From: Aquilaria yunnanensis
Taxonomy: Eukaryota; Streptophyta; Magnoliopsida; Malvales; Thymelaeaceae
Direction of reading: 5' to 3'
NCBI GenBank assembly: GCA_039654915.1
Contig: CM077596.1
Location: 51,148,501-51,212,500, forward strand
DNA length: 64,000 bases
Of this stretch, positions 1 through 61,159 are shown piece after piece; within the stretch, counting starts at the first letter, position 1; every line of letters begins with the position of its first letter. Made by a program: the position numbers and the translations under genes. A model generated the notes under the pieces. The model saw only the letters and a list, made by a program, of their open reading frames with translations, was not told the origin of the DNA and did not search any database.

Positions 1-71
1 ATCAAGAATCAAAGGTATCTCTCTTTTTTTTCTTTTAACGGTATCCGTATGTTCCTCTATGTTCTTCAAAT

Positions 72-1100
72 GTGAATGTGTTTGTTCTTTTGAGGAGGTT
101 TGTGCGTCTTAGATCTCGTGTTTTCTTAAAGTGCCTGTTTGTTCTTTTGTGTGTTTGTCCTTTTCGAAGTGCCTGTTTGTTCCTTTGGAAGGCATTGCTG
201 GTTCTTTTGTGCTTGCAACAGGCCTGTATGTTCTTTTGTGTGTTTGTTCTTTTAGAAGTGCCTGTTTGTTCCTTTAGAAGGCATTCTTGGTTCTTTTGTG
301 TGTTTGTTCTTTTAGAACTGGTTGTTTGTTCCTTTAGAAGGCATTGTTGGTTCTTTTGTGCTTACAACAGGGTTGTTTGTTCTTTTGTGTGTTTGTTCTT
401 TTAGAACTGGCTATTTGTTCCTTTAGAAGGCATTGTTGGTTCTTTTGTGCTTACAACAGGCCTGTTTTTTTTTTGTGTGTTTGTTCTGTTAGAAGTGCCT
501 GTTTGTTCCATTAGAAGCCATTGTTGGTTCTTTTGTTCTTACAGCAGCTCTGTTTGTTCTTTGGTGTGTTTGTTCTTTTAGAACTGTCTGTTTGTTCATT
601 TAGAATTCATTGTTTTTTCTTTTGTGCTTATAACAAGCCTATTTTTTTTTTGTGTGTTTGTTCTGTTAGAACTGCCTGTTTGTTCATTTAGAAGGCATTG
701 TTGGTTCTTTTGTGCTTACAACAGGCATGTTTGTTCTTTTGTGTGTTTGTTCTTTTAGAGCTGCCTGTTTGTTCATTTAGAAGGCATTGTTGGTTCTTTT
801 GTGCTTACAACAGGCCTGTTTTTTTCTTTTGTGTGTTTGTTCAGTTAGAAGTGCCTGTTTGTTCCATTAGAAGCCATTGTTGGTTCTTTTGTTCTTAGAG
901 CAGCCCTGTTTTTTCTTTTGTGTTTTCGTTCTTTTAGAAGTGCCTGTTTGTTCCTTTAGAAAGCATTGTTGGTTCTTTTTTGCTTACAACTGGCCTATTT
1001 GTTCCTTTGGTTGTTTGTTCTTTTAGAAGTGTCTGTTTGTTCCTTTAGAAGGTATTGTTGGTTCTTTTGTACTCAATTGTTTGTTCTTTTTTTTTTCATT
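72..1100 (+). repeat. TGTTCTTTT minisatellite array upstream of the Ulp1-like exons
   Basis: About 1 kb made almost wholly of imperfect repeats. The short unit is TTTGTTCTTTTAGAA. A longer unit of roughly 120 bp adds GCCTGTTTGTTCCTTTAGAA, GGCATTGTTGGTTCTTTTGT and a GCTTACAACAGG box. Open frames across it give only Phe/Leu/Val/Cys-rich repetitive peptides, so it is not treated as coding. It runs up to the predicted acceptor at 1107-1108. A 5' exon of the protease gene may lie within or before it. Confidence 0.9.
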
Positions 1101-1108
1101 GTTTGCAG

Positions 1109-13254: not shown

Positions 13255-13288
13255 TTTAATTAATTGGGGGACGGTGGGAGGCTGGGAC

Positions 13289-14670
13289 TACCATGGATAT
13301 CATGCACATATGTCTAATTAGACATAGGGATGATTTTACTATTTTGCCCCCAAAATTTTCTTCCTTAACCAGTCGTTTTCTCTTTCTCATCCTCGCCGGC
13401 GCCGACCACCGCCGCTCTTCGTTCCAGACAAATTGCCGGCGATCGAATCGCGTCGCCGCACTCTCTGCTCCGATCAAATCGCGCCTGGCCTCTCGTCGCG
13501 CCTGGCTTCGCCTCGCGTCGGATCAGCGCCGCCTGGCTTTGCCTCGGATCGCGTCGGATCAGCGCCGCCTCGCGTCGTGCCTGGCTTTGCCTCGCCCCAC
13601 ACCTCGCCGTTTCGCCTCGTCGCTTCCTCTCCACACTCGCCTGAGACTCGCCTCCTCAAATCGTCGCGCGGTTCGCTTCACCGATCGTCCGATCGGATCC
13701 CTGTTCTCTGCCTCTCGTCGCGCCTGACTTTGCCTCTCTTCGCCTCGCCTCGCCTCGCCTCGGTGCCGCCTCCGATTCTTAGATCACAGTCGATTCCCTT
13801 CCTTCGGCTCCGCCATAGCAACAAATACTTAGATTTGGCGGCTTCTGTAGGGTGATGGCAGACATTGGAGGCACCAGCGATGGCCGGAGAAGATGAAGCT
13901 TTTGCGATCTCCTGAAGACGAAGACGAAGACGCAATTCAATTGAGTGACATGAATGCACCAACGACGCAACAAGCCTGATATCCGACGACTCGATGACGA
14001 CAACGCCACGGCGACTATGCGATGAGCCAGGATCGGAGCAATCGGAGCAGAGGCAAAGCTGGGAGTAAATTGACATTTTGTCCCTTTTTTTTAGACACTT
14101 TTTTTAGAGACACGCTTTAGACATTTTGTCACTTTTTTTTAGACACTTTTACACATTTTATTAGACACTTTTTATTGTTTCAATTAATTATTTTTGAAAA
14201 GAATAAATTGTCTACGTATTGGTCAGACACTTCTAAATATTTCTTTAGACACTTTTACACATTCATTCAGACACTTTTTTATTATTTTAATTAGTTATTT
14301 TTAAAGAGAGTAAATTATCTACGTATTGGTCAGACACTTCTAAATATTTTTTTAGACACTTTTCGTCATCCATTCAGACACTTTTCGTCATCGTCATCCA
14401 TTCAGACACTTTTCGTCATCCATTCAGACACTTTTCATTTTTTCGAATATGACATATGACGTATACTGCGAGATCATGATGTATGACAGTTCGGCAGCAG
14501 TACCGGCGCTAGCACCGGCAGCAGCAGCAAGCTGGGGTTTTTTTGTGGAGAAGAATATTTTAACTAAGGGTATTTTTGTCAATTGTTTTAATAATTTATG
14601 CCTTCTATATAGAAGATTAAGGGATGGGTTACTATGTCTAATTAGACATAGGTGCATAATAAAAGAACTA
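13289..14670. mobile_element. Non-autonomous Mutator-like element, family member 1
   Basis: Starts TACCATGGATATCATGCA and ends CATAATAAAAGAACTA. Each end holds the palindrome TATGTCTAATTAGACATA, and the outer 40 bp form imperfect inverted repeats. The 9-bp GGCTGGGAC is duplicated on both sides (13280-13288, 14671-14679). The left half is GC-rich with a CTCGTCGCGCCTGGCTTCGC-type tandem region; the right part is AT-rich with many TTAGACACTTTT repeats. There is no transposase. The element sits just upstream of the NBS-LRR leader. The second copy is at 16607-17926. Confidence 0.9.
14085..14440 (+). repeat. TTAGACACTTTT subterminal array in element copy 1
   Basis: The motif TTAGACACTTTT and variants (TCAGACACTTYT) occurs about a dozen times near one end of the element, plus a CGTCATCCATTCAGACAC subrepeat that is expanded relative to copy 2. 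The same array is at 17400-17710. Arrays like this can be transposase-binding sites; that role is inferred. Confidence 0.85.
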
Positions 14671-15311: not shown

Positions 15312-16606
15312 ATGGCGGAAGTTGTACTCCATGCTGCTACAAGGGTGATGATATCCGAGGCCAAGAACGCTGTGTTCGAGCTGGTAAAACTGGGGTGGAC
15401 TTTTGGCAAGAAGCTGAAGGAGCTCCAACGCTTCCTGGATATGATCGAAGCTTTTCTGGACGATGCTGAGACGAGATCAACCGACCCACCTGTTAAGGTG
15501 TGGCTCAAGTGGCTTGCTGATGGCGCTTCCCGGGCCCAAGATGTCTTAGCTGAGCTCGCTTATGAAGCCAAGCGGATTGAGCTACGAGTCAACAATCGAT
15601 GGGGAGGAAAGCTCATTAACAGCTTCTCTTCCCACAATCCTACCATTTTCCGCTTGAGGATGGCTTATAAGGTTAAGATTGTAACCAAGTCGCTGGACAA
15701 GATCTGCAGCAAGGGCACCGGATAGGGCCTCCAAAACAGAGGGCAGCTGGTTTCCGCGCCTGCACCCTCATCAGGGCTCCAGGAGACTCATGCTTTTCTC
15801 GGTGATTCGGAACTAGTTGTCCCAAGAGACGTTGCTGTTTCTGAAGTTGTAAAGATGTTGATTAGCTCATCAAACACCTCACATCCGCTCGGCGTTGTCT
15901 CCATTGTGGGGATGGCCGGCCTTGGAAAGACGACTCTGGCCAAAATGGTTTTGGAAGATGAGCGCGTGAACAACCTGTCCGACAAGAGACAGCAGCAGTT
16001 ATGGGTGTGTGTTTCTGAGACTTTTGATGTTAAGATGATCCTGGGTAAAATATTGGAGTGTGTTACCAGTGAAACTATTGCTTCCTTTGGAAGCTTAAGC
16101 CCGCAGAGCTTAGTTATAAAGCTCAAAGAGAAGTTAGAAGAGAAGCCATGTCTTCTGGTGCTTGATGATGTGTGGAACAAGGACCCTGAAAAATGGGATG
16201 ATTTGAGGAAGTGTTTGGAAGGAATAAATCAGAAAAACAAGACTACCATTCTGGCAACGACTCGAGATATGGAGGTGGCATCAACTGTGGGTTCTCTTCC
16301 GGAATTTATATATGAAGTTCCCATATTGGAGGATGATCAGTGTTGGTCTATAATCAGAGCAAAATCATTCGGAAAATCATCTGAAGTGCCTGACAATTTA
16401 GAAACAATTGGAAGAAATATTGCGAAAAAATGCAAAGGTGTGGCCTTGGTTGCAAGTGTCATTGGAGGAACCATGCGCAAGTATAGGACCGAACGAGCAT
16501 GGTCATCAATTCAAAATAGTAATTTATGGAATTCTTTGGAAAGTAATGAAGATATTCTCCGTATACTACAATTGAGCTATGACCGCTTGGGTTCACCGTA
16601 TTTGAA

Positions 16607-17926
16607 TACCATGGATATCATGCATATATGTCTAATTAGACATAGGGATGATTTTACTATTTTGCCCCCAAAATTTTCTTCCTTAACCAGTCGTTTTCTC
16701 TTTCTCATCCCCGCCGGCGCCGACCACCGCCGCTCTTCGTTCCAGACAAATTGCTGGCGATCGAATCGCGTCGCCGCACTCTCTGCTCCGATCAAATCGC
16801 GCCTGGCCTCTCGTCGCGCCTGGCTTCGCCTCGCGTCGGATCAGCGCCGCCTGGCTTTGCCTCGGATCGCGTCGGATCGCGTCGGATCAGCGCCGCCTCG
16901 CGTCGTGCCTGGCTTTGCCTCGCCCCGCACCTCGCCGTTTCGCCTCGTCGCTTCCTCTCCACACTCACCTGAGACTCGCCTCCTCAAATCGTCGCGCGGT
17001 TCGCTTCACCGATCGTCTGATCGGATCCCTGTTCTCTGCCTCTCGTCGCGCCTGACTTTGCCTCTCTTCGCCTCGCCTCGGTGCCGCCTCCGATTCTTAG
17101 ATCACAGTCGATTCCCTTCCTTCGGCTCCGCCATAGCAACAAATACTTAGATCTGGCAGCTTCTGCAGGGTGATGGCAGACATTGGAGGCACCAGCGGTG
17201 GCTGGAGAAGATGAAGCTTTTGCGATCTCCTGAAGACGAAGACGAAGACGCAATTCAATTGAGCGACATGAATGCACCAACGACGCAAGAAGCCTGATAT
17301 CCAACGACTCGATGACGACAATGCCACGGCGACTATGCGATGAGCCAGGATCGGAGCAATCGGAGCAGAGGCAAAGCTGGGAGTAAATTGACATTTTGTC
17401 CCTTTTTTTTAGACACTTTTTTTAGAGACACGCTTTAGACATTTTGTCACTTTTTTTTAGACACTTTTACACATTTTATTAGACACTTTTTATTGTTTCA
17501 ATTAATTATTTTTGAAAAGAATAAATTGTCTACGTATTGGTCAGACACTTCTAAATATTTCTTTAGACACTTTTACATATTCATTCAGACACTTTTTTAT
17601 TATTTTAATTAGTTATTTTTAAAGAGAGTAAATTATCTACGTATTGGTCAGACACTTCTAAATATTTTTTTAGACACTTTTCGTCATCCATTCAGACACT
17701 TTTCATTTTTTTGAATATGACATATGACGTATACTGCGAGATCATGATGTATGACAGTTCGGCAGCAGCACCGGCAACAGCAGCAAGCTAGGGTTTTTTT
17801 GTGGAGAAGAATATTTTAACTAAGGGTATTTTTGTCAATTGTTTTAATAATTTATGCCTTATATATAGAAGATTAAGGGATGGGTTACTATGTCTAATTA
17901 GACATAGGTGCATAATAAAAGAACTA
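16607..17926. mobile_element. Non-autonomous Mutator-like element, family member 2, inside the NBS-LRR exon
   Basis: Same termini as copy 1 (TACCATGG start, GAACTA end, internal TATGTCTAATTAGACATA palindromes). It has a perfect 9-bp duplication GTATTTGAA at 16598-16606 and 17927-17935. Copies 1 and 2 are nearly identical along their length; copy 1 is 62 bp longer, mainly from extra CGTCATCCATTCAGACAC units. The insertion splits the codons for SYDRLGSPYL and KLCFAYC of the NB-ARC domain. Confidence 0.93.
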
Positions 17927-30129: not shown

Positions 30130-32930
30130 TTTAGCGACGGCTTAATTAGCGACGGCAAAAAACCGTCGCTAATTAGCGACGGTTAATAGTCGGTAATATT
30201 CCGGTGAGACTTTAGCAACGGCTGCTAGTCGCTAAATTTTAGTGACGGTTTACCGTCGCTAAATTAGTGACGGTTATGCGTCACTAAATTTAGCGACGCA
30301 TAACCGTCGCTAAATTAGTGACGGTTATGCGTCGCTAACATTAGTGACGGCTTACCGTCGCTAATTTAGTGACGGTTATGCGTCACTAAATTTAGTGACG
30401 CATAACCGTCACTAATTTAGCGACGGTTATGCGTCGCTAAATTAATTTAGCGAAGGTTATGCGTCACTAAATTTAGCGACGCATAACCGTCGCTAATTAG
30501 CGACGGTTATGCGTCGCTAACATTATAATTGTATAATTATAATTTTTAATTTGATTAATTAAGTAATTAAAAAATCTATTTTACACATAATCTATTTTTT
30601 GAGTAATTAACAAATAATCTATTTTACACATTTTATTTTACTTATTGTTTATGTTAAATCTAGTGCAATAGAACTAGTTACCGTTTTATATGTCACTTAT
30701 TTAAATGTATAATTATAATTTGTAATTTGATTAATTCAGCATACATATCTCTAAACATTTTTTTAGTAATTAATAAATAATCTATTTAATGAAAATTAAA
30801 TTAACGGGTTATTAGTTTATTGTCACATGAGGCTTAATCATTTATTATTATTTTATAATATTACTGTGGCAAGGTTAACTTAAGACAAGTAGCGACGGCT
30901 GTTAGTCGCTAAATTTTAGTGCCGGTTTACCGTCGCTAAATTAGTGACGGTTATGCGTCACTAACTTTAGCGACGCATAACCGTCGCTAAATTAGCGACG
31001 GTTATGCGTCGCTAACATTAGCGATGCATAACCGTCACTAATTTAACGACGGTTATGCGTCACTAAATTTAGCGAAGCATAACCGTCGCTAATTTAGTGA
31101 CGGTTATGCGTCGCTAACATTATAATTGTATAATTATAATTTTTAATTTGATTAATTAAGTAATTAACAAATCTATTTTACACATAATCTATTTTTTGAG
31201 TAATTAACAAATAATCTATTTTACACATTTTATTTTACTTATTGTTTATGTTAAATCTAGTGCAATAGAACTAGTTATCGTTTTATATGTCACTTATTTA
31301 AATGTATAATTATAATTTGTAATCTGATTAATTCAGCATACATATCTCTAAATATTTTTTTAGTAATTAATAAATAATCTATTTAATGAAAATTAAATTA
31401 ACGGGTTATTAGTTTATTGTCACATGAGGCTTAATCATTTATTATTATTTTATAATATTACTGTGGCAAGGTTAACTTAAGACAAGTAGCGACGGCTGTT
31501 AGTCGCTAAATTTTAGTGACGATTTACCGTCGCTAAATTAGTGACGGTTATGCGTCACTAACTTTAGCGACGCATAACCGTCGCTAAATTAGTGACGGTT
31601 ATGCGTCGCTAACATTATAATTGTATAATTATAATTTTTAATTTGATTAATTAAGTAATTAACAAATCTATTTTACACATAATCTATTTTTTAAGTAATT
31701 AACAAATAATCTATTTTACACATTTTATTTTACTTATTGTTTATGTTAAATCTAGTGCAATAGAACTAGTTATCGTTTTATATGTCACTTATTTAAATGT
31801 ATAATTATAATTTGTAATCTGATTAATTCAGCATACATATCTCTAAATATTTTTTTAGTAATTAATAAATAATCTATTTAATGAAAATTAAATTAACGGG
31901 TTATTAGTTTATTGTCACATGAGGCTTAATCATTTATTATTATTTTATAATATTACTATGGCAAGGTTAATTTAAGACAAGTAGCGACGGCTGTTAGTCG
32001 CTAAATTTTAGTGATGGTTATGCGTCACTAACTTTAGCGACGCATAACCGTCGCTAAATTAGTGACGGTTATGCGTCGCTAATGTTAGCGATGCATAACC
32101 GTCACTAATTTAGCGACAATTATGCGTCACTAAATTTAGCGACGCGTCGCTAACATTATAATTGTATAATTATAATTTTTAATTTGATTAATTAAGTAAT
32201 TAACAAATCTATTTTACACATAATCTATTTTTTGAGTAATTAACAAATAATCTATTTTACACATTTTATTTTACTTATTGTTTATGTTAAATCTAGTGCA
32301 ATAGAACTAGTTATCGTTTTATATGTCACTTGTTTAATTGTATAATTATAATTTGTAATTTGATTAATTCAGCATACATATCTCTAAACATTTTTTTAGT
32401 AATTAATAAATAATCTATTTAATGAAAATTAAATTAACGGGTTGTTAGTTTATTGTCACGTGAGGCTTAATCATTTATTATTATTTTATAATATTACTGT
32501 GGCAAGGTTAACTTAAGACAAGTAGCGACGGCTGTTAGTAGCTAAATTTTAGCGACGCATAACCATCGCTAAATTAGTGACGGTTATGCGTCGCTAACAT
32601 TAGCGACGCATAACCGTCACTAAATTAGTGATGGTTATGCGTCACTAAATTTAGCAACGCATAACCGTCGCTAATTTAGTGACGGTTATGCGTCGCTAAC
32701 ATTATAATTGTATAATTATAATTTGTAATTTGATTAATTAAACATACAAATCTCTAAATATTGTTTGAGTAATTAACAAATAATCTATTTTACATATTTT
32801 ATTTTACTTATTGTTTATGTTAATATTTTATCATTTCATTGTGACCTAATATTACTGAAAATAGGTTAATCTGTTAAGAACTAGTGACAGCCAGAAGTCG
32901 CTAGTTTAAGCGACGGCTAGAAGTCGCTAT
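30130..32930. repeat. Left subterminal array: GCGACGG palindromes in 0.5-0.6-kb tandem units
   Basis: A unit consisting of an AT-rich block (CATTATAATTGTATAATTAT ... CACATGAGGCTTAATCATTT ... GGCAAGGTTAACTTAAGACA) plus a cluster of GCGACGGTTATGCGTCGC palindromes starts at 30521, 31118, 31613, 32154 and 32700. The fifth copy is shortened. Spacings are 597, 495, 541 and 546 bp; most of the difference is in the number of palindromes. Confidence 0.93.
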
Positions 32931-46477: not shown

Positions 46478-47730
46478 TGTGGCAACGTCGGGTTTTCTGG
46501 AGTCACCACCAATCGGTTTTCGCTCAGGTCGATTGGACACCTTAAAATTGGTCTGCGAGAGTTCGGGGATTCGGGAGTACGGTTACGTTAAAACAACTTT
46601 GTTAAAACGCCAAAAAATTGGTACCTTAGTTGATTTCAATTTTGTTTTGCTTTGCTTTAAAAAAATATTCAGTTAATTTTCTAACTAGAAATTTTAACTG
46701 AATTAGTCAGATGTGGATTTTTAAATTAAGACGGGTTTAAAAGTCTTCAGTAATTAATTTGTATAAAATTTGATATTTCCAAACCATGGACTCTGCCGAG
46801 TCACCCGGACACGGAAGTTTTAATTCCGAACCATGGACTCTGCCGAGTCACCCGGACACGGAATTTGACAAAATTTTAAATAATTTAATCCATATCGTAA
46901 AATATGGATTTTTATCTTTATATTTATTTTTATTCAATAAAAAGAAAAAGTTGATATTTTCCAAACCGTGGATCCTACCGGATCATCCGGATATGGAAAT
47001 TGATTTAATATTTTATTAAATTTTTTTGTTTATTTAATCATAATTTTTTTAATATTTTGTTGTTATTATTTTTTTTACTTTTCTTAAATTGTTAATTACT
47101 ATTACTTTTAAAAAAATTGATTGATTTTTTTTTAATGTTTTCTTTAAAAGAAATAAATAAAAATATGTAATCCAAAAATAATAAAAGATGGTTGACTTTT
47201 TTTGTTAAAAATTGATTTTTTTTGTTAGACATACAAATGAAGTTAATTATTCACATAAAAAAAACTTCTTTTTTTGTTATTATTTTTATTTTTATAGCCG
47301 AAAGTGAAATAAGTTTGACCATTTATATAAAAAAAATACATAAAGTAAATAAAGGACAAATAAATAAATAAATAAATAAAGTGGGGCTTTTTGGCCATCC
47401 ACTTAAAAATTGCAGAAATTAAATATCATATGCAAATAAAAAGCACATAAAGGAAGATTAAAAGTCAATAAATAATAAACAAATAAATAAAGCGAGGCTT
47501 TTTGGCCATCCACTAATAATAAATAAATAGGAGGTATAACCTTCCATGAATTATAATAATAATAATAAAGATAATAAAAGTTAGTTGTTAGAATTAGTTG
47601 TTAATAATAGTAATAATAACAATAATAAAGGTTAATAAAGTTAGCAAAGTTAGTTATTAATAATAATAACAATAATAATAAAAGTTAGTGAAGTAAAGTT
47701 AGTTGTTAACAATTAAAAGGTTAGTAACTT

Positions 47731-47761
<31 letters not shown>

Positions 47762-48937
47762 TAATAATATTAAAAGTTAGTTATTAGTTCTGCAGAAATA
47801 AATGAAAAAGTTAATAACCAAAATGAATAATCATGGAAAGATGAAGGATTAAAGCAGAGTTTTACCCTAAGAGTATAATTTTGAATTTGACAGAAACGAG
47901 AACAGAGCGCGACGCGGGGGGGCGAGAGCAACACGGAGGCAACAGCGGCCAGGGGCGAGCACAGCGGGCGCACGGGCTAAGGCCAACGGCGGTGGCGACG
48001 TGCGGCGTGGAGGCGAAGGTGGCGAACGGCGGTGGCGGCGAAGCGGAAGGAGGAAGGAGAACGCGTCGGAGGAAGGGAGGAGATCGTCGCGACGGCGGCG
48101 CGGCGTGGGCGACGGCGGCGGGGCGTGGGCGACGACGGTGGCTGGACGACGGCGACGTCGACGGGATGACGGCGTGACGGAGACAGGAAGGAGTGACGGC
48201 ACGCAAAGGCAAACGGAAGTGTGAAAGGGGGGAGTTAAACGGCAGACAGGAAAAATTTCTAGTGTTCTGGGAATAAGAAAGAGAGGCCAGGGATTAAGGC
48301 TGAATATTTTCTTTTTTTTTTTTTTAAACGGATCTCTAAGCTTTCTTTCTATTTTTTTTCTCTCTTTTCTCCCTGTTAACACACAGATTTGGACCCCTAT
48401 TTATAGGGGAAGGGGTTCTGGACTGTTCATAATTAAAAATTAATTAAATTCAAACTTATCTTTTAATTTGGTAAAATGACAGTTTCAGTCCTTTACGTCT
48501 CTCAGACTCTGGATAAGTTCCTGAAGCTTCTGATTTTGACAATTCTGTCATTTTCTGTTAATTTGGGCCAGAACGGTTATGCTGGCCCCAAATTGATGTG
48601 ACAAACTACCAAATGCTCCTGGAACTTTCAGATTTTGTCAATTTTTCCCGAAACTTCTCAATTTTGTCATTTTTACCTCAAACTTTTTAATTTTGTCACT
48701 TTTATGGAGTTTTCTTTTTTCTTTCAAACATACACATATACACACATATATCATTTTAAATCAAATCTTCACAAAACAAAACAAAACAAAAAAAAAATGT
48801 ATTTTAAACTAATTAAAAAATTTTAGTAATAATAATAATAATAATAGTAATAATAATAATTTTTTTTTAATTAATTTTTTATTTAATTTTTTTTAAAATT
48901 ATTTTTTTTAATGGTCGGACGAAATTGGGTGTCAACA
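46478..48937 (-). repeat. 3' LTR (complete, 2460 bp)
   Basis: On the minus strand it begins TGTTGACACCCAATTTCGTC and ends CCCGACGTTGCCACA, the TG...CA of an LTR. It contains a GC-rich block (47890-48240), AAT microsatellites (47545-47770) and the direct repeat CATGGACTCTGCCGAGTCAC. It matches 59347-60916 almost base for base, with a few substitutions and different AAT repeat length. Confidence 0.93.
48388..48412 (-). promoter_or_regulatory. LTR promoter TATA box
   Basis: On the minus strand CCCCTATAAATAGGGG lies about 540 bp into the LTR, followed by the GC-rich presumed leader. The position suits the U3/R border of a plant LTR. The box sits in a 16-bp perfect palindrome. Confidence 0.65.
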
Positions 48938-48950
48938 GATGCCCCCCTTT
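48938..48950 (-). other. Polypurine tract next to the 3' LTR
   Basis: On the minus strand AAAGGGGGGCATC directly precedes the first TG of the LTR. This is the expected place and composition for the second-strand primer. Confidence 0.8.
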
Positions 48951-49039
48951 GCATGCTTCATGGGACATGATGTATGCAAAGTCGTTACCAAATTTCGTCC
49001 GGCTTAGCTAGGCATTGAAAACTTTCTCGCCGCCTAAAT

Positions 49040-50300
49040 CCTGAGGTTAAGGAACTTTCTTAGAACCTCTGCAATAGGAACTCTCCTATCGTTAAATAAA
49101 AATTGATTGATTGATCGAGGTTAAGGGCCCTACCTTAGAACCTTTATGATAGGAACTTTCCTACCGTCGAAAAGAAATTGATTTGGTTGATTTTAAGGTT
49201 TAAGGAAAGGTCCTTAGAACCTCTACGATAGGAAAGCTCCTATCGTTGTAAGATGGACTGATTGATTGATTGTTTGAGGTTTAAGGAAAGATCCTTAGAA
49301 CCTCTACGATAGGAAAGCTCCTGTCGTTGTAAGATGGACTGATTGATTGATTGTTTGAGGTTTAAGGAAAGGTCCTTAGAACCTCTACGATAGGAAAGCT
49401 CCTATCGTTATAAGATGGACTGGTTGATTGATTGTTTGAGGTTAAGGAAAGGTCCTTAGAACCTCTACGATAGGAAAGCTCCTATCGTTGTAAGATGGAC
49501 TGGTTGATTGATTGTTTGAGGTTTAAGGAAAGGTCATTAGAACCTCTACGATAGGAAAGCTCCTATCGTTGTAAGATGGACTGATTGATTGATTGTTTGA
49601 GGTTTAAAGAAAGGTCCTCAGAACCTACCTCTACGATAGGAAAGCTCCTATCGTTGTATGATGGACTGATTGATTGATTGTTTGAGGTTAAGGAAAGGTC
49701 CTTAGAACCTCTACGATAGGAAAGCTCCTATCGTTGTAAGATGGACTGATTGATTGATTGTTTGAGGTTAATGAAAGGTCCTTAGAACCTCTACAATAGG
49801 AAATCTCCTATTGTTGTAAGATGGACTAGTTGATTGATTGTTTGAGGTTAAGGAAAGGTCCTTAGAACCTCTACGATAGGAAAGCTCCTATCGTTGTAAG
49901 ATGGACTGCTTGATTGATTGGATGAGGTTAAGGAACTCTCCTTGAACCTCGACGATAGGAACTTTCCTATCGTTGAAAGTAAAATTGATTGAATGAGGTT
50001 AAGGAACTCTCCTTGAACCTCGACGATAGGAACTTTCCTATCGTTGAAAATAAAATTGATTGGATGAGGTTAAGGAACTCTCCTTGTACCTCAACGATAG
50101 GAACTTTCCTATCGTTGAAAATTTTGATTGAATGAGGTTAAGGAACTCTCCTTGAACCTCGACAATAGGAACTTTCCTATCGTTGAAAATTTAATTGAAT
50201 GAGGCTTAAGGAACTCTCCTTAGAACCTCGACGATAGGAACTTTCCTATCGTTGGAAATTTGATTGAATGAGGCTTAAGGAACTCTCCTTAGAACCTCGA
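49040..50300 (-). repeat. Palindromic minisatellite in the 3' UTR of the retrotransposon
   Basis: About sixteen tandem units of 70-85 bp. Each has AGGTTAAGGAAAGGTCCTTA and the hairpin-forming CGATAGGAAAGCTCCTATCG or CGATAGGAACTTTCCTATCG. Two subfamilies occupy separate halves: longer units with TGATTGATTGATTGTTTGAG up to about 49920, shorter ones after. Tandem repeats at this site are known in Ogre/Tat elements. Confidence 0.92.
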
Positions 50301-50818
50301 GCGAAATTTATATGAAAGCAATTGAAATTGGAATAATTTTCTTCGAAAGTGTGGATCTTCATAATAGGCGAGTGCAAAAATTTAGACTTTGATAAAATGA
50401 GTGAATCTTGGTGATGACAATAACACTGACAAATTATGTAAAGGGAACGGATATTTGGAATCAATATCCACGGTTCATCTAATATTTTCTTCAGTAAATA
50501 TAGATTCGCTTGAGAGATATGTCATCCAAATAAGGTTGAAGTTTAACTACCCCAAAATGTTATGCCTAGTAGACCTAATAGGATGCGTCTCAAGAGTAAT
50601 AAAAATTACTCTTTACTCAGCCATTCCAACCTAAAGGCATTGTCCCATGGTTTTAATATCAGCATGGACGAAACTATCTTATAAGATAAAAAGGAAATTC
50701 CCTGAAAAGAAAAACTAGAACACGAAAGAAAATGCTGATAATTAAAACTAAAGGACAAGAAAAACGGATCGGATCGCTTCTTCTTCCACAATACTTCAAC
50801 AGGCCGGGTAAAGGGCAA
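50301..50818. other. 3' flank of the LOG-like ORF, no gene seen
   Basis: Non-repetitive, stop-rich sequence between the minisatellite and the LOG-like stop codon. It presumably holds the 3' UTR of that gene. Confidence 0.5.
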
Positions 50819-51448
50819 TTATGGGATGGAACTGGTTGGGAAAGACTGTCGTGTCCAGTCTATCTGGATCATCGCTGGATCTGGTTCAGGAACAAAAGCT
50901 TGCATTTTATCTAGCAATTCTTCAGCAGTTGTTGCGGATATTATAATTCGTCGTGCCACTCTTGATATGAAATTCTTCTGCATAGCATAATCCACAAAAG
51001 CTATCAGACCTGTAAAGAAATTGTTAACATTCAACAGCCCAATGGGTTTCTTATGCAAATTAAGTTGGGCCATGGAAGCAATTTGAAAGACTTCTCCCAA
51101 TGTGCCAAAACCACCTGGTAGAGCGATAAAAGCATCAGCATTTAAAAGCATTTGTAACACACGCTCTTGCAAATTTTTAACCACTAATTCTTCTCCAATC
51201 GTGCCCCCAGAAATAAATTTCAAAGGTCAAGGGATGATGCCCAAAACTTGGCTTCCTCCTAGAGATGCTGCTGATGCTACACCTCCCATTAATCCGACAC
51301 TACCTCCTCCATAAACTAAATGTATTTTTCGCTCAGCTAATACTCTACCCAAATGGTTGGCTGCCTTTAAATACTTTTCATCTTTTCTAGGAAAAGCTCC
51401 AGAAAATACACAAATACTTCGGGGTTTACGAATGGAGGTTTTCTCCAT
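50819..51448 (-). pseudogene. LOG-like cytokinin-activating enzyme ORF with one in-frame stop, intronless
   Basis: The 209-codon frame starts [17 protein letters not shown] and shows the Rossmann-type LOG signature: [15 protein letters not shown], then LPGGFGTLGE (the PGGxGTxxE motif), preceded by NLQERVLQM with the conserved Arg, and KKPIGLLNV. LOG enzymes release active cytokinin from its riboside 5'-monophosphate in the cytosol. TGA at 51227-51229 falls right after LGIIP, where relatives usually have a basic residue, and the frame is open on both sides. Plant LOG genes normally have several introns and this copy has none, so it probably came from a processed transcript. Loss of activity is inferred from the stop. 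A TATA box lies 40 nt upstream. Confidence 0.85.
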
Positions 51449-51483
51449 TCCTATCCTTACCCATGTGAGAAAACAAGAACAGA

Positions 51484-51500
51484 GGATATATTTATAGAGA
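51484..51500 (-). promoter_or_regulatory. TATA box of the LOG-like ORF
   Basis: On the minus strand CATCTCTATAAATATATCC lies about 40 nt before the ATG. Its context (CATCnCTATAAAT) matches the box upstream of the second 182-aa gene and, more weakly, those of the other two. Confidence 0.6.
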
Positions 51501-51544
51501 TGAAAAGATAAAGTAATAATTTTATTCTTAAGAGTGAATACATT

Positions 51545-51815
51545 ATTGCCAACTATATACAGTAGTCACGACTATGGATCAGGTCAGGAGTGGGTACATT
51601 GTCGTCAAAAGAGGAGGAAAATTTCAAAAACAACTAGCATATACAGTAGTCGCAACTGTAGCTTACGTCAGGAGTAGGTACGTGATTGTCGGAAGAGATG
51701 AAAAATTTCAAAAGTGGCAGCTATATACAGTAGTCTGTGTCAGGAGTGGGTACATTATTGGGAGGATAATTTCAAAAGCGACAGCTAGCATGTACAGTAA
51801 TCGTGACTTTGGTCC
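51545..51815 (-). repeat. Tandem repeats upstream of the LOG-like ORF with TGACG-type sites
   Basis: Four imperfect copies of a 67-84-bp unit, recognised by TACAGTAGTC (at 51557, 51641, 51725 and, diverged, 51791) and GTCAGGAGTRGGTAC. On the minus strand one copy contains CTGACGTAAGC, an as-1-like site bound by TGA-class bZIP factors in plant and pararetrovirus promoters. A role as enhancer is inferred. Confidence 0.7.
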
Positions 51816-51859
51816 ACGTCTTCCACTGATTTTGCATCCAGTAACGGCTTCAATGCCTT

Positions 51860-52408
51860 CTATGAATCGGCGATTTGCATCCCATCCAGTTTTCTTACAA
51901 ACTGGCAAACTGGGTCGTTTAAAGTCAGATTCCCAAGACTATAACGATCTCGTTCTTTTTGGAGAATTATCCATAATCCAACAATCTCAAATTGCACTAT
52001 TCCGCAAGAATGCGCTTCAAGAACCTCTCGAATATCTTCTAGAGATTCCTTACGCAAGTCATTCTTAATGAATCTTATTCTATCATTACGATTTCTGGTG
52101 ATCACTCCTGGAGAACGACATTTATTGCCGCAAATCCACCATCCACAATTATGACAAACGCCTAGCCTCTTTGCTCTTCTTTTTTTGGCATAAGCGCTTT
52201 TACCAAAGCCGGGCATACGGGGAAAGAATGCTTCTGGAATTTCACCAGCTGAACGAACCTTAGCTTCGATTAGCCACCGCACATTATCAGGAATGCCTTT
52301 GTGCATAAATACTCTGAATCGTTCACATCTAGCTTGATAAATCTTTTTAAGAACATTTATTGGGAAAGAAGGAAAATACTTTCGTAGGGCGGAAAGAGAA
52401 GACTCCAT
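51860..52408 (-). CDS. Cys/Arg-rich nucleic-acid-binding-like protein, copy 1 (182 aa)
   Basis: Start chosen at MESSLSALRK to match the other two copies; all three are exactly 182 codons plus stop. N-terminal helical region (LRKYFPSFPINVLKKIYQAR), a basic stretch YAKKRRAKRLG at about residue 80, then a Cys finger CHNCGWWICGNKC (C-x2-C-x4-C-x3-C), followed by NRNDRIRFIKN, and a conserved C-terminal region (HSCG, KERDRYSLGN, DPVCQFVRKLDG). Basic stretch plus finger is the hallmark of the carlavirus-type nucleic-acid-binding proteins (Viral_NABP family), which bind RNA/DNA and in several viruses act on silencing or host transcription. Homology is my reading of motifs, not a search result. The gene is intact and intronless. 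Confidence 0.7.
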   Translation of the reverse strand: MESSLSALRKYFPSFPINVLKKIYQARCERFRVFMHKGIPDNVRWLIEAKVRSAGEIPEAFFPRMPGFGKSAYAKKRRAKRLGVCHNCGWWICGNKCRSPGVITRNRNDRIRFIKNDLRKESLEDIREVLEAHSCGIVQFEIVGLWIILQKERDRYSLGNLTLNDPVCQFVRKLDGMQIADS

Positions 52409-52463
52409 TGATGAAGGAGGCAAAGAAAGAAATTAGTGATTGTAGGAAACGGAAATAACTAAC

Positions 52464-52480
52464 ACATATTAATAGTGATG
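52464..52480 (-). promoter_or_regulatory. TATA-like box of copy 1
   Basis: On the minus strand CATCACTATTAATATG stands about 57 nt before the ATG, aligned with the better boxes of the sister units. One base departs from TATAAAT. Confidence 0.4.
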
Positions 52481-52624
52481 AAAGGGATAATGTGTTAATT
52501 ACACTTATAGAAGCAAGTACATTATTGTCAAAAGAAAAGACAAATGACAGCTTATATATACAGCAATCATGATTATGGCTCTCATCTTCCACTGATTTAT
52601 GTCCAGTAATGGCTTCAATGCCTT

Positions 52625-53173
52625 CTATAAGTCAAGGATTTGCTTCCCATCCAGTTTTCTTACAAACTGACAAACAGGGTCGTTTAAAGTCACATTCCCA
52701 AGACTGTAACGGTCTCGTTCTTTATGGTAAGTCCTCCATAAACCGATAATTTCACCTTGCACTTTTCCACAAGAATGCGTTTCAAAAGTCTCTCGGATAT
52801 CTTCCAGAGATTCCTTACGCAGGCCATTCTTAATGAATTTTCTTTTATCTTCACGATTTGTGGAGATGTATCCTAAAGAGCGATATTTAGTATTACAATT
52901 CCATCGCCCACATTTATAACACACGCCTAGTCTCTTTGCTCTTCGCCTTTTGGCATAACGGCTTTTACCTAAACCGGGTATGCGGGGCATAAATGCATCT
53001 GGAACTTCCCCAGCCGAACGGACCTTAGCTTCAATTAACCACCGCACATCGTCAGGAATGCCCTTGTGTATAAAAACTCTGATTCTTTCACATCTAGCTT
53101 GATAAATCTTTTTAAGAACATTTATTGGGAGGGAAGGAAAGTACTTTCGCAGGGCAGAAAGAGTAGACTCCAT
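52625..53173 (-). CDS. Cys/Arg-rich nucleic-acid-binding-like protein, copy 2 (182 aa)
   Basis: Same length and layout as copy 1: MESTLSALRKYFPSLP start, basic YAKRRRAKRLG, finger CYKCGRWNCNTKY, NREDKRKFIKNG, and a C-terminal region ending VRKLDGKQILDL. The fourth finger Cys is Tyr here, so metal binding may be altered. The frame is intact. Copies 1 and 2 share most residues, including runs such as LKKIYQARCER and SLGNxTLNDPVCQFVRKL. It lies 217 bp upstream of copy 1 in the minus direction, and each unit carries its own TATA-like box. It could be a virus-derived gene or an unrelated plant finger protein; the basic-plus-finger order favours the first. Confidence 0.7.
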   Translation of the reverse strand: MESTLSALRKYFPSLPINVLKKIYQARCERIRVFIHKGIPDDVRWLIEAKVRSAGEVPDAFMPRIPGLGKSRYAKRRRAKRLGVCYKCGRWNCNTKYRSLGYISTNREDKRKFIKNGLRKESLEDIRETFETHSCGKVQGEIIGLWRTYHKERDRYSLGNVTLNDPVCQFVRKLDGKQILDL

Positions 53174-53232
53174 TGATGAGAGAAGAATTTAAGAGATGAG
53201 GGAAATGAATCAGTTATTGTGGGAAACTGAAA

Positions 53233-53306
53233 TAACCGACTTTGAGAATCACAGAGTACCGTATCTGCTGCTTAACCGGAAAGAAGAACATGCATTTATA
53301 GTGATG
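53233..53306 (-). promoter_or_regulatory. Upstream box and TATA of copy 2
   Basis: CATCACTATAAATGCA (minus strand, 53291-53306) is a clear TATA box about 120 nt before the ATG. Between it and the ATG lies a block (53233-53282, containing ACAGAGTACCGTATCTGCTG and CTTAACCGGAAA) that recurs upstream of copy 3 at 54073-54121. Conservation of a non-coding block between units suggests duplication of gene plus leader. Confidence 0.6.
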
Positions 53307-53461
53307 AAAGGATAACGTGTCGATTACACTTATGGGAGTAAGTACATTATTGTCAAAAGAAAATGTAAATTTTCCAAATATGACAAATTGTATGTACAGT
53401 AATTGTGACTGTGGCTCACATCTTCCACTGGCTTTACGTCCAGTAACGGCATTAACGGCTT

Positions 53462-54010
53462 CTATGAGTCGAGAATTTGCTTCCCATCCAGTTTTCTTAC
53501 AAGCTGGCAAACAGGGTCGTTTACAGTCAGATTCCCGGGACTGTATCGTTCTCGTTCTTCATGAAAAATGCTCCATAAACCAAGAAGTTCGCGTTGCACT
53601 GATCCACAAGAATGCGTCTCAAGAGTCAATTGGATATCATCCAATGAGTCCTTACTCAGGCCGTTCTTGATGAATCGTATTTTATCTTCTCGATTATCGG
53701 AGATCATTCCTAAAGAACGACATTTAGTATTACAAGTCCACCGTCCACATTTGTGGCAGACTCGTAACCTTTTCGCTCTTCGCTTTTTGGCATAAGAGCT
53801 TCTGCCTATACCAGGCATGTGAGACACAAATGCCTCTGGGATTTCACCTGCGAGACGAACCTTAGCTTCGATTAACCATCGTACATCTTCAGGGATTCCT
53901 TTGTGCATCAGAACTCTTAATCGTTCACAGCGAACTTGGTAGATCTTTTTAAGAATGTTCATTGGGAGAGAAGGAAAATATTTTCGTAAGACAGAAAGAG
54001 TAGGATCCAT
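53462..54010 (-). CDS. Cys/Arg-rich nucleic-acid-binding-like protein, copy 3 (182 aa)
   Basis: MDPTLSVLRKYFPSLPMNIL start, basic YAKKRRAKRLR, complete finger CHKCGRWTCNTKC, NREDKIRFIKNG, C-terminal HSCGSVQRELLGLW and DPVCQLVRKLDGKQILDS. The frame is intact. Most differences from copies 1 and 2 are substitutions, with no length change, which suggests selection on the protein. It is the most upstream unit in the minus direction and follows the TGACGTCA repeats at 54.18-54.53 kb. Confidence 0.7.
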   Translation of the reverse strand: MDPTLSVLRKYFPSLPMNILKKIYQVRCERLRVLMHKGIPEDVRWLIEAKVRLAGEIPEAFVSHMPGIGRSSYAKKRRAKRLRVCHKCGRWTCNTKCRSLGMISDNREDKIRFIKNGLSKDSLDDIQLTLETHSCGSVQRELLGLWSIFHEERERYSPGNLTVNDPVCQLVRKLDGKQILDS

Positions 54011-54129
54011 TTTCTAGAGGGAAATAAAAGAAAGAAGAGAGGAAAGAATCAGTTATTATGGGCAACTGAGAGAACCGACTTGAGAGTTACGGAGTACCGT
54101 ATCCGCCGCTTAACCGGAAAAGTGGATCC

Positions 54130-54535
54130 TACTTTATTTTGATGTGATTGATATTTCTTATCTTTGATATTCCATCCAGCTGACGTCGATCCAGTCCTTG
54201 ATTATTGAATCTTTTGTCCGCTTTTGACAAAGTTTTCAACGACAATATTTCTTGACATCTGCCTTATCCTTGGATATAGCTATCTCTTATCTTGGATACT
54301 ACTAGCTGACGTCAATCCTGTCCTTCCAGGTGTAGCCTCGATTATTGAATCCATTAGCAGCTTTTGACAAATTGTCAACGACAATATTTCTTGACATCTG
54401 CCTTATCCTTGGCTATAGCTATCTCTTATCTTGGATACTACTAGCTAACGTCAATCCTGTCCTTCCAGGTGTAGTCTCGATTATTGAATCGATTGCCAGG
54501 CTTTTGACATATTGTCTACCTTATCCTTGAATTCC
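54130..54535 (-). promoter_or_regulatory. Three tandem repeats with TGACGTCA-type sites upstream of copy 3
   Basis: Units with GACGTC or ACGTC cores start at 54181, 54307 and 54446 (TGACGTCGATCCAG, TGACGTCAATCCTG, TAACGTCAATCCTG), with periods of 126 and 139 bp. Shared blocks include CAACGACAATATTTCTTGAC and CTATCTCTTATCTTGG. TGACGTCA is a bZIP (TGA/CREB-type) target. The third copy has lost the first base of the site. Promoter function for copy 3 is inferred from position. Confidence 0.6.
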
Positions 54536-57099: not shown

Positions 57100-58345
57100 A
57101 ATCACATCGGGCCTAGCAACTTGGACTCGACCAACTTGAGTTTCAGTGCCACACAATTTTCAATTGAATGCCCAATTGAACCTTTTTGGTAATCACATTT
57201 GGCATTTGGGTCATACCAACTTGAAAGAGGACGCCATTTGATTTTTGCTACTGTTGGTATGGGTGGTAGCAGGTTTGAAGCTTGTGGAAGTTGAATTGAC
57301 TTGAGTAGCTTTCTTCCCATGAGTAGTATGTGGTACTGATGAGGGAGCCTTGGAGATTACAATCTTAATAGGATATCCTTTCACTTGTATCGTGAGTGGT
57401 ATTGTACCATAGAACCAGGAGATGATGTTATGGACAACTCCACTTCTTTGATTGAAACATCCTCCAATTGAAGAATCGACCAACTTTCTTGTTTTGATTC
57501 CAAATTCGATTTTTTTTTTTCCAGATAATACCATTTTTGAAAAGCTACTTGAAGTGTTCCGAATTAGTTTTTCATAAAATGGTCTATTTAGTGTTTGGAT
57601 AAACAGGGTGATCAGTTTTCTTTCTATCATAGAAGTTTCTCCACCTTTGTGCGTATTCCTTAAAGGTCTATTGTTCTTTCTTCTCCATATTCTGGAGAGT
57701 TTGGCGATCCGGAGCCAAGTCCATGACATGCTTGTAGTTATTGATGAAATCCTGAGCGAGGTCATTCCATGTTTTGATGTTCTTTGGACCTTGACTTAAA
57801 TACCAATGTAGTGCTGACTTTATAAGACTTTCTCGAAAAAGTGTTATCCATACTTTCTCGTCTTTTGTGAGTGGTTGTAGTATTCTTAAAGACAACGTGA
57901 TGTGATAGAGCAACTTGTTCCATCATATTTCACAAAGTCTGGCACCTTAAAGTCTGAAGGAATCACAACGTCTGGCATCAAGTAGATATCACCCACTAAG
58001 AGAGCTCCGAATATAGTGCCTCTTTCAATGACCCGAAATCTCTTTTCTATGGTCTCGAGTTTTTTTTAGTATCATCTTCTTTTTTAAGCAGGGGCTTCTT
58101 TCCTTCAAAAATTGGATTGTGCCTTAAATGAATGTTATCAGATGGGCCTGAGTCATGAAAAAGCTTCTCTTAAGCTGAGACCCGTTGTTAAGTGAATCCG
58201 TGAGGATAAGTAGGATCTTGTGGTTCTTTGATAGGAACTTGAGTTGCTTTTCCCTTAATCAACTCCATTAGTTGTTTCATTTGTTCTGCCATGTTTTCAT
58301 CTTGGACTCAATATCTGTGAGACGACCTTCGGCTTGCTCTGCCAT
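57100..58345 (-). pseudogene. Retrotransposon gag, broken by a stop and frameshifts
   Basis: The start MAEQAEGRLTDIESK (58345) is followed in shifted frames by MPDVVIPSDFKVPDFVKYDG, then SALHWYLSQGPKNIKTWNDL and KHVMDLAPDRQTLQNMEKKE. An in-frame TAG at 57668 is followed by TFKEYAQRW, MIERKLITLFIQTLNRPFYE and, at the C-end, WYDPNAKCDYQKGSIGHSIE. These are diagnostic blocks of the gag of Ty3/gypsy Tat-type plant elements, which forms the virus-like particle. At least one stop and two frame changes make it non-functional. It is followed by no protease or RT. Confidence 0.85.
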
Positions 58346-59324: not shown

Positions 59325-59343
59325 GTCCCCAGCGGAGTCACCA
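59325..59343 (-). other. Primer binding site, tRNA-Arg type
   Basis: On the minus strand TGGTGACTCCGCTGGGGAC stands three bases after the LTR end. It resembles the primer site of Ogre-type elements, which is complementary to a tRNA-Arg 3' end. The exact tRNA could not be checked. Confidence 0.75.
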
Positions 59344-59346
59344 AGC

Positions 59347-60597
59347 TGTGGCAACGTCGGGTTTTCTGGAGTCGCCACCAATCGGCTTTCGCTCAGGTCG
59401 ATTGGACACCTTAAAATTGGTCTGCGAGAGTTCGGGGATTCGGGAGTACGGTTACGTTAAAACAACTTTGTTAAAACGCCCAAAAATTGGTACATTAATT
59501 GATTTCAATTTTGTTTTGCTTTGCTTTAAAAAAATATTCAGTTAATTTTCTAACTAGAAATTTTAACTGAATTAGTCGGATGTGGATTTTTAAATTAAGA
59601 CGGGTTTAAAAGTCTTCAATAATTAATTTGTATAAAATTTGATATTTCCGAACCATTGACTCTGCCGAGTCACCCGGACACGGAAGTTTTAATTCCGAAC
59701 CATGGACTCTGCCGAGTCACCCGGACACGGAATTTGATGAAATTTTAAATAATTTAATCAATATCATAAAATATGGATTTTTATCTTTATATTTATTTTT
59801 ATTCAATAAAAAAAATTAATATTTTTCAAACCGTGGATCCTGCCGAATCATCCGGATATAGAAATTGATTTAATATTTTATTAAATTTTTTTGTTTATTT
59901 AATCATAATTTTTTTAATATTTTGTTGTTATTATTTTTTTTACTTTTCTTAAATTGTTAATTACTATTACTTTTAAAAAAATTGATTGATTTTTTTTAAT
60001 GTTTTCTTTAAAAGAAATAAATAAAAATATGTAATCCAAAAATAATAAAAGATGGTTGACTTTTTTTGTTAAAAATTGATTTTTTTTGTTAGACATACAA
60101 ATGAAGTTAATTATTCACATAAAAAATACTTCTTGTTTTGTTATTTATTTTATTTTTATAGCCGAAAGTGAAATAAGTTTGACCATTTATATAAAAAAAA
60201 TACATAAAGTAAATAAAGGACAAATAAATAAATAAATAAATAAATAAAGTGGGGCTTTTTGGCCATCCACTTAAAAATTGCAGAAATTAAATATCATATG
60301 CAAATAAAAAGCACATAAAGGAAGATTAAAAGTCAATAAATAATAAAAAAATAAATAAAGTGAGGCTTTTTGGCCATCCACTAATAATAAATAAATAGGA
60401 GGTATAACCTTCCATGAATTATAATAATAATAATAAAGATAATAAAAGTTAGTTGTTAGAATTAGTTGTTAATAATAGTAATAATAACAATAATAAAGGT
60501 TAATAAAGTTAGCAAAGTTAGTTATTAATAATAATAACAATAATAATAAAAGTTAGTGAAGTAAAGTTAGTTGTTAACAATTAAAAGGTTAGTAACT

Positions 60598-60653
<56 letters not shown>

Positions 60654-60916
60654 TAATATTATTAAAAGTTAGTTATTAGTTCTGCAGAAATAAATGAAAA
60701 AGTTAGTAACCAAAATGAATAATCATGCAAAGATGAAGGATTAAAGCAGAGTTTTACCCTAAGAGTATAATTTTGAATTTGACAGAAACGAGAACAGAGA
60801 GCGACGCGGGGGGGCGAGGAGCAACACGGCGGCGACAGCGGCCAGGGGCGAGCACAGCGGGCGCACGGGCTAAGGCCAACGGCGGTGGCGGCGTGCGGCG
60901 TGGAGGCGAAGGTGGC
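59347..60916 (-). repeat. 5' LTR, truncated by the nested element
   Basis: Matches 46478-48037 closely, e.g. GTGGCAACGTCGGGTTTTCT at the border. It is interrupted after GTGGAGGCGAAGGTGGC, where a new TGTTGACACCC terminus begins. The missing 0.9 kb, including the promoter, should lie beyond the nested element, outside the window. The AAT microsatellite is longer than in the 3' LTR. Confidence 0.93.
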
Positions 60917-61159
60917 TGTTGACACCCAATTTCGTCCGACCCTTTAAAAAAAAATTAAATTAATCTTAAAGAAAAATATATTAATTAATTATTATTGTTA
61001 TTATTAAAAAAAAAAAGAAAAAGAAAAGAAGAATTTTTTTTAATTCGTTAGATAGTTTAGGGGGCATTTTTTTAGTTTTAAAATAATAGATATACACATA
61101 TATATATATATCTATATGTATAAAAAATTTAATTAATTAAAAAAAATTTATTATAATTG

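Follow-up and report, generated by a model that had tools for sequence, protein, structure and literature searches.

The window analyzed here, a 64,000-nucleotide stretch of the Aquilaria yunnanensis genome (contig CM077596.1, positions 51,148,501 to 51,212,500), contains a long terminal repeat (LTR) retrotransposon whose interior carries four genes in the sense orientation: three tandem genes for 182-aa relatives of the carlavirus nucleic-acid-binding proteins (NABPs), followed by a gene of the LOG type. Judged from sequence comparisons, this cassette appears to be part of a high-copy family under selection, which occurs with and without pol and has related genes in several eudicot orders. 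With moderate confidence, we regard it as a conserved accessory module on the sense strand of plant Ty3/gypsy elements; its NABPs would act in anti-silencing or transactivation, its LOG enzyme in cytokinin release.

Three NABP Genes and a LOG-Type Gene

The three NABP frames lie in tandem on the minus strand between 51860 and 54010, and the LOG-type gene comes next (51448 to 50819). The frames and their common orientation, reported in an initial annotation made from the letters alone, were confirmed as follows:

53462 to 54010, minus strand: NABP-A, 182 aa, four zinc-finger cysteines intact; Pfam PF05515 at E 6.7e-07 and PF01623 at 1.4e-05, both above cut-off
52625 to 53173, minus strand: NABP-B, 182 aa, open frame, one zinc cysteine replaced by Tyr; PF05515 at 2.4e-07
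51860 to 52408, minus strand: NABP-C, 182 aa from ATG, four cysteines intact; PF05515 at 4e-05
50819 to 51448, minus strand: LOG-type (cytokinin riboside 5'-monophosphate phosphoribohydrolase-like) gene, intronless, one in-frame stop; PF03641 at 4.7e-28

A length of 187 aa for NABP-C corresponds to a TTG start. Each of the three proteins scores above the Pfam cut-offs for both Viral_NABP (PF05515) and Carla_C4 (PF01623), and a profile search with Pfam, one of the checks proposed at the outset, assigned the 182-aa proteins to no ordinary plant family. The likeness to carlavirus-type NABPs noticed in the initial annotation is supported by these profile matches and, more weakly, by the ranking of predicted structures in a fold library. 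The two viral models each match 53 of 56 aligned NABP homologues at E 0.01, and the alignment of these 56 sequences has ten invariant columns, with all four cysteines present at 90% or more. The finger follows the pattern C-x2-C-x4-C-x3-C and adjoins a basic stretch; it is complete in A and C, so that the description of three intact Arg/Cys-finger genes holds for these two, whereas NABP-B is open but has a Tyr at residue 97 in place of the fourth cysteine. All A and C sequences (11 of 11 and 18 of 18) retain the four cysteines, compared with 12 of 18 for B; judged from this retention across copies, NABP-B is loosening. A further conserved part near the C-terminus (GNLTxxDPVCQFxRKLDGK) falls outside the Pfam match.

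Two predicted structure models of NABPs (mean pLDDT, the predicted local distance difference test, 64.5 and 68.0) were searched against the viral structures of BFVD. With the second model, 21 of the 26 best-ranked structures are named nucleic-acid-binding protein or RNA silencing suppressor, the others being two flexivirus proteins whose names give no function (15kDa protein, HP) and three unnamed entries. The first model likewise has six structures of this kind at the top, ahead of a phage repressor in seventh place. A comparison with PDB sequences returned one match only, at E 0.6.

The identity of the fourth gene as a LOG is supported by its match to PF03641 and by the resemblance of its predicted protein to the Arabidopsis structures 2a33 and 1ydh. 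The PGGxGTxxE motif is present in the element LOG, as is the presumed active-site arginine. The gene is not intact in the window: the full frame begins at the ATG at 51448 and is interrupted by one in-frame stop, behind which the 134-aa frame makes up the C-terminal two thirds. Nine of ten other near-full copies have neither stops nor indels. A protein search with the LOG retrieved 1771 proteins, and among the best 120, which were listed, Reevesia, Orobanche, Pterospermum and Diplodiscus contribute large clusters. A quick tree of the window LOG and 98 of these 120 separates them from two Arabidopsis LOGs (SH-aLRT support 95); a Primulina protein named LOG3-like groups inside these 98, so that some of the listed LOGs may be of host origin.

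LOG-type proteins of other species (e.g., P0122, P0135, P0200, P0213) end in a basic cluster followed by LxLxL, of the KRKLDLTLRL type, which we take to resemble the plant EAR repressor motif. Such tails occur in 56 of 98 LOG sequences of at least 195 aa, against shuffle means of 1.0 (maximum 4) for whole proteins and 5.6 (maximum 13) for tails, the sequences being related to one another. None was seen among 10 copies of the window family.

Selection and Age of the Genes

Purifying selection appears to have preserved the cassette genes. Between the A, B and C genes of the window, dN/dS is 0.28, 0.25 and 0.35, against 0.77 to 2.27 in the two shifted frames, a control by which chance open reading frames (ORFs) are rejected. 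Between copies, mean pN/pS is lowest for LOG (0.18, 11 sequences), followed by A (0.23, 11), C (0.35, 18) and B (0.40, 11), in sets that comprise the window and near-full copies (10 of the 10 seen for A, 10 of 17 for B, 17 of 17 for C and 10 of 17 for LOG), those with stops included. pN is smaller than pS in 54 of 55 pairs for A, 48 of 55 for B, 141 of 153 for C and 49 of 55 for LOG; as the pairs are not independent, these counts are no significance test. The dS of 0.40 to 0.70 between A, B and C, compared with a divergence of 0.021 between the LTRs of the window and combined with the low dN/dS, indicates that the triplication, many times older than the insertion itself, has been transposed repeatedly as coding sequence.

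Copies in the Same Genome and the Whereabouts of pol

Searches of the genome scored the best candidates only, and the resulting copy numbers are lower bounds. For the LOG region, all 40 scored candidates match over the full length at 95-100% identity, besides four further short pieces (2642 first-look candidates). For NABP-B, all 150 scored candidates (8954 first-look) are full length and 88-100% identical; 130 are free of stops and 20 contain internal stops. The cargo is therefore found well beyond the copy in the window, and its one-off capture is rejected by at least 40 LOG-region and at least 150 NABP-B copies.

In the copies on C5 (L018, L019) and C4 (L020, L021), the first LTR is followed by the leader, a gag remnant, A, B, C, LOG and the second LTR, with no pol; the two LTRs of a copy differ by Kimura two-parameter (K2P) distances of 0.0044 and 0.0072, respectively. 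No pol was found in a copy on C2, of which the upstream side (L022) was inspected. In the copy on C8 (L023, L024), RVT_1, RT_RNaseH, RVT_3, Integrase_H2C2 and rve follow one another immediately before A-B-C-LOG and in its orientation. The missing pol of the initial annotation is thus absent in the window and in the C5, C4 and C2 copies, but a broken one stands upstream of the same cassette in C8, i.e., in one of five copies examined. Ogre and Retand elements are characterized by an extra RNase H (aRH) between RNase H (RH) and integrase (INT) (PMC6317226). This feature of Tat elements is present in the related copy L023, the window having no pol in which to look for it.

At 95.21-95.24 Mb of C5, three NABP-B matches are spaced 12,994-12,996 bp apart, the length of one LTR plus one internal region; they probably represent tandem element copies arisen by recombination between LTRs.

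Relatives in Other Plants

A protein search with the NABPs found 151 homologues at E < 1e-3, mostly of 182 aa. Named sources among the best 120, which were listed, are Xanthoceras, Populus, Acer, Rhamnella and Orobanche, all of them eudicots and of several orders, and clusters at 90% identity contain up to 566 member sequences. In a tree of 88 NABPs (85 of the 120 listed and the three window genes), A, B and C fall into one clade with P0001 and P0002 (support 100/98).

LOG and NABP matches also coincide on contigs of identical size. Above 2 kb, three sizes (8723, 4511 and 2128) are shared against 0.063 expected (P 0.00015); over all sizes, the excess is weak (5 shared against an expectation of 1.6; P for at least 4, 0.076). 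The comparison is based on 32 of 120 LOG and 111 of 120 NABP rows, those on contigs smaller than 20 kb.

The 3.3-kb contig L001 contains an integrase frame and, about 190-205 bp behind its stop, an NABP frame of 186 aa from the first ATG and 182 aa from the aligned one, identical to P0006. The first frame (466 aa) matches only Integrase_H2C2 and rve, with neither RVT_3 nor a chromodomain, and the contig contains no reverse transcriptase (RT); by its motifs we take the integrase to be Athila-like. Since the integrase of L001 appears to be of a non-Tat type and the C8 copy has a Tat-type pol, the NABP with its leader adjoins two kinds of pol. When P0006 was searched against the genome from which the window comes, all 150 scored rows were 70-73% identical, with no Athila-type NABP among them; by sequence, we interpret these matches as copies of the A type from the window family. 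In two gene models, P0086 (Rhamnella) and P0107 (Orobanche minor), an NABP is fused to N-terminal stretches that Pfam does not score and that we assume to be integrase and protease. A pattern search of viral contigs matched 17 and 26 stretches, none of them a relative of the NABPs.

L001 (positions 1-3330) is filed as a Candidatus Nomurabacteria metagenome-assembled genome, and its content is plant DNA; it is apparently a contamination of that reference genome.

Leader Boxes and Upstream Modules

The upstream boxes said to be shared by the genes were confirmed as repeated sequence and fall into two kinds, a leader box and a TATA-bearing module; NABP-A is in addition preceded by repeats:

54046 to 54121, minus strand: leader box upstream of NABP-A; identical to the box between pol and NABP in L001 at 59 of 71 aligned bases
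53206 to 53282, minus strand: leader box upstream of NABP-B; 80.8% identical to L001 over 78 nt, E 7e-14; 59 of 72 bases
53283 to 53375, minus strand: TATA-bearing upstream module of NABP-B, common to NABP-C and LOG, not A
52464 to 52545, minus strand: TATA module upstream of NABP-C, TATA changed to TATTAAT
51475 to 51552, minus strand: TATA module upstream of LOG, TATAAATA at 51489; overlaps repeat family D17
54230 to 54504, minus strand: pair of 136-bp repeats, spaced 139 bp apart, that precedes NABP-A; contains the only TGACGTCA palindrome of the window (54307)

The leader box of L001, about 73 nt long, is matched less well before NABP-C (44 of 62 bases). Identity to L001 is 82-83% in the boxes of A and B, against 56-60% at third codon positions of A, B and C. 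The 75 bases behind the NABP stop codon are also conserved (83%, 85% and 75% for A, B and C), and flanks outside the box and this 3' block are 65-76% identical over 33-56 bases, aligned with free end gaps, or over 3 bases in one case. Leader-box conservation, as far as these alignments tell, is clear in contrast to third positions and weaker in contrast to the flanks. The box had no match in viral contigs. A stable RNA structure in the leader was considered and rejected: six pieces of leader and 3' flank from L001 and the window fold no better than shuffles (z -1.45 to 1.14).

Local alignment of the NABP-B module scores 113 with NABP-C and 64 with LOG, values reached by none of 300 shuffles. 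The region upstream of NABP-A does not exceed shuffles, 292 of 300 of which reach its score. This suggests that the TATA modules of B, C and LOG are putative internal promoters. TGACGT-type sites occur upstream of NABP-A between 54181 and 54500, among them TGACGTCA, which is presumably a bZIP-type site.

The Element in the Window

The element that carries the cassette, with a gag remnant on one side of it and the polypurine tract on the other, has the following parts:

46478 to 48937, minus strand: 3' LTR, ends TGTTGACACC...GTTGCCACA
59347 to 60916, minus strand: partial 5' LTR, outer end truncated; K2P 0.021 to the 3' LTR over 1541 sites
59326 to 59343, minus strand: primer binding site TGGTGACTCCGCTGGGGA, 0 expected by chance
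about 48938 to 48953, minus strand: polypurine tract, read beside the 3' LTR
57105 to 57922, minus strand: degraded gag remnant, PF03732 (Retrotrans_gag) at E 1.1e-4, with 22.8 bits just short of the cut-off of 24.1
49033 to 50304, minus strand: tandem-repeat array with units of about 70-81 bp, between LOG and the polypurine tract

Primer site, polypurine tract and both LTRs, named in the initial annotation, are indeed present. The LTRs are 95.9% identical, but the 5' one is truncated and abuts, at 60916, the start of a related LTR of opposite orientation (60916 to 61003; 80% over 91 bp). Together these landmarks are common to all LTR elements and not specific to Tat; the gag remnant is Tat-like in our estimation. 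No pol was detected between the LTRs of the window. From the K2P distance, the insertion is dated to about 0.8 to 1.5 million years, assuming rates of 1.3e-8 and 7e-9 per site per year.

Elsewhere in the window, a 1.1-kb direct repeat (13286 to 14386 and 16604 to 17704; 96.7% identical) stands beside an NBS-LRR-like frame (15855 to 17150) and perhaps represents the LTRs of another insertion. A protein search with the NBS-LRR gene gave three proteins at E 1e-100, of which two are named, from Gossypium and Theobroma, at 43-47% identity. Blocks of repeated DNA, about 82-93% alike, occupy 30313 to 32823.

Comparison with Known Systems

One carlavirus NABP, p12 of chrysanthemum virus B (CVB), was reportedly connected with cell proliferation in a 2013 Plant Cell paper. 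The same protein is reported to activate nuclear transcription and to suppress cytoplasmic silencing (PMC7588395); by analogy with it, the roles in silencing and cell division proposed in the initial annotation seem plausible. Cysteine-rich proteins of two mandariviruses are pathogenicity determinants, and one of them is a silencing suppressor (PMC12172455). Like the window genes, the Viral_NABP and Carla_C4 proteins of Betaflexiviridae and relatives combine a basic stretch with a four-cysteine finger. The window NABPs, in contrast, are encoded by an LTR retrotransposon in three tandem copies, have a conserved C-terminal part beyond the Pfam match and measure 182 aa, compared with 62-225 aa, mostly less than 145, in the first 26 BFVD rows.

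The initial annotation knew of no described element with this set of genes. This stands for the NABPs, no report of NABP families linked to LTR elements having been found in the open-licence literature, but not for the LOG, which is already in print: a LOG-type (YgdH) domain has been described within Ty3/gypsy elements of two Citrus species and, without filter, of Populus (PMC9289625, citing Steinbauerova 2011). Two papers in that literature that give the accession PF01623 concern glyoxalases. The available text of the report on the LOG-type domain mentions no NABP partner, whereas the window LOG belongs to a four-gene cassette. Orchid Gypsy elements with an AlkB demethylase ORF are a further parallel, as they join Ty3/gypsy with a kind of gene also found in flexiviruses; there, however, the protein is another one, nested among plant ALKBH homologues and shown to be active in vitro (PMC9289625). 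With Retand/Grande-type elements, the window element shares a long region between pol and 3' LTR, accessory ORFs, tandem repeats, the probable Tat lineage and non-autonomous members (PMC11963269, PMC7264820), but their conserved accessory ORFs are antisense and of the Transposase_28 family, whereas the window genes are sense (PMC11963269). According to the accessible part of the same survey, which had an ORF limit of 600 bp, sense ORFs of the region between pol and 3' LTR contain no known domain. In the available portions of three reviews and surveys of extra ORFs, NABPs go unmentioned and the phrase "nucleic acid binding" occurs 0 times each (PMC7264820, PMC6317226, PMC11963269). Limits of 250 codons (PMC6317226) or 600 bp (PMC11963269) exceed the 182 aa or 549 bp of an NABP gene, and two published screens would miss it by these limits. 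Modulation of RNA silencing has been proposed for unrelated ORFs of sunflower Tekay elements (PMC11728184).

Proposed Role of the Cassette and Alternatives

What the sequences establish is the identity of the genes by profile, their position, a minimum number of copies, purifying selection and proximity to two kinds of pol. In the accessory module that we propose, the four genes occupy the interval from pol to the 3' LTR, which in retroviruses houses env and accessory genes. The window holds a non-autonomous, pol-less copy whose machinery presumably comes from pol-bearing relatives. The NABPs may be made from element RNA or from short internal promoters and would bind nucleic acid through the basic stretch and the C-x2-C-x4-C-x3-C finger, thereby dampening small-RNA silencing of the element or activating transcription in trans. 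The LOG would release active cytokinin and so favor dividing cells, in which new insertions are inherited.

Several observations weigh against this proposal. The LOG frame of the window is broken, and the element LOG family has GTLGE where host LOG3 has GTLEE, with Gly before the glutamate of the motif; in L024, Ser also stands in place of the Pro of the motif. Two element LOGs score 112.8 and 117.1 against the cut-off of 300 of the NCBIfam cytokinin-LOG equivalog, a model built for bacterial and archaeal annotation, and the window LOG piece is likewise below it. No LOG was found on the 3.3-kb stretch of L001. As to the NABPs, 6 of 18 B sequences have lost a zinc cysteine, and among near-full copies only 4 of 10 for A, 5 of 10 for B and 12 of 17 for C contain neither stops nor indels. 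The genome searches, in which only the best candidates were scored, overestimate the share of open frames. The best BFVD match has E 0.0067, with none at E 0.001, low template-modelling (TM) scores and weak NABP models. Finally, the C8 pol, seen in this copy alone, is broken into two frames that were scanned apart.

The NABPs might instead serve replication of their own element as nucleocapsid-like or RNA-packaging chaperones that replace a lost part of gag, without any action on host silencing. They are indeed basic, Cys-finger proteins, and the window, C5 and C4 copies retain only a gag remnant. We consider this explanation unlikely, though, as NABPs also stand behind the RT-RH-aRH-INT pol of L023 and the Athila-like integrase of L001 and are thus not tied to gag loss (both cases being judged from pol, not gag), and as the closest relative so far described suppresses silencing and activates transcription (PMC7588395). 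A somewhat stronger, yet still tentative, candidate is a protein that mainly trans-activates element promoters, like retroviral Tat or the Grande nuclear protein, with the upstream modules as its putative targets. The TATA modules common to B, C and LOG, the contrast between leader box and third codon positions in A and B against L001 and the activation of transcription by CVB p12 (PMC7588395) are all compatible with it; NABP-A, however, lacks a TATA module, and the leader box folds no better than shuffles, which does not bear on DNA binding.

That the genes are mere passengers of a successful element, with no function for it, would agree with the many broken copies, including the window LOG. 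The mean pN/pS of 0.18-0.40 between copies, the retention of the four cysteines among homologues and the age of the paralogues, far greater than that of the insertion, already disfavor this view, which we hold to be very improbable. Even less credence is given to the 182-aa family as ordinary plant genes, or a fragment of an endogenous RNA virus, captured once by the element: some homologues do lie on large annotated plant contigs, but no plant family model matches, the 90%-identity clusters are large (up to 566), the NABP follows an integrase in L001, and P0086 and P0107 join it to the stretches that we took for integrase and protease.

The accessory module may have passed between the Athila and Tat lineages or have been inherited by both. 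It is conceivable, at well below even confidence, that the NABP is an old gene common to plant Ty3/gypsy elements and flexiviruses, which serves Athila- and Tat-type elements of eudicots as a dedicated anti-silencing or transcription factor, is paired with a cytokinin enzyme (in other species with a C-terminal repressor-like tail), and was possibly supplied to viruses by retrotransposons. In that case, retrotransposons would carry an anti-host effector kit, as viruses do.

Concluding Remarks

Accessory ORFs are common in plant LTR elements and their functions are mostly unknown (PMC6317226, PMC7264820, PMC11963269). The NABP family ties one class of them to viral silencing suppressors and transcription factors, in young copies with many open frames. 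The observations of the initial annotation were largely right, and its interpretation is plausible and now better supported: the cassette is most likely, on the sequence evidence, an accessory kit in which zinc-finger proteins would work against silencing or as activators of the element, together with a hormone enzyme. Whether plant retrotransposons fight silencing with virus-type proteins becomes a directly testable question, which also bears on where flexiviruses obtained their NABP gene. The preserved extra genes may help the element to spread.

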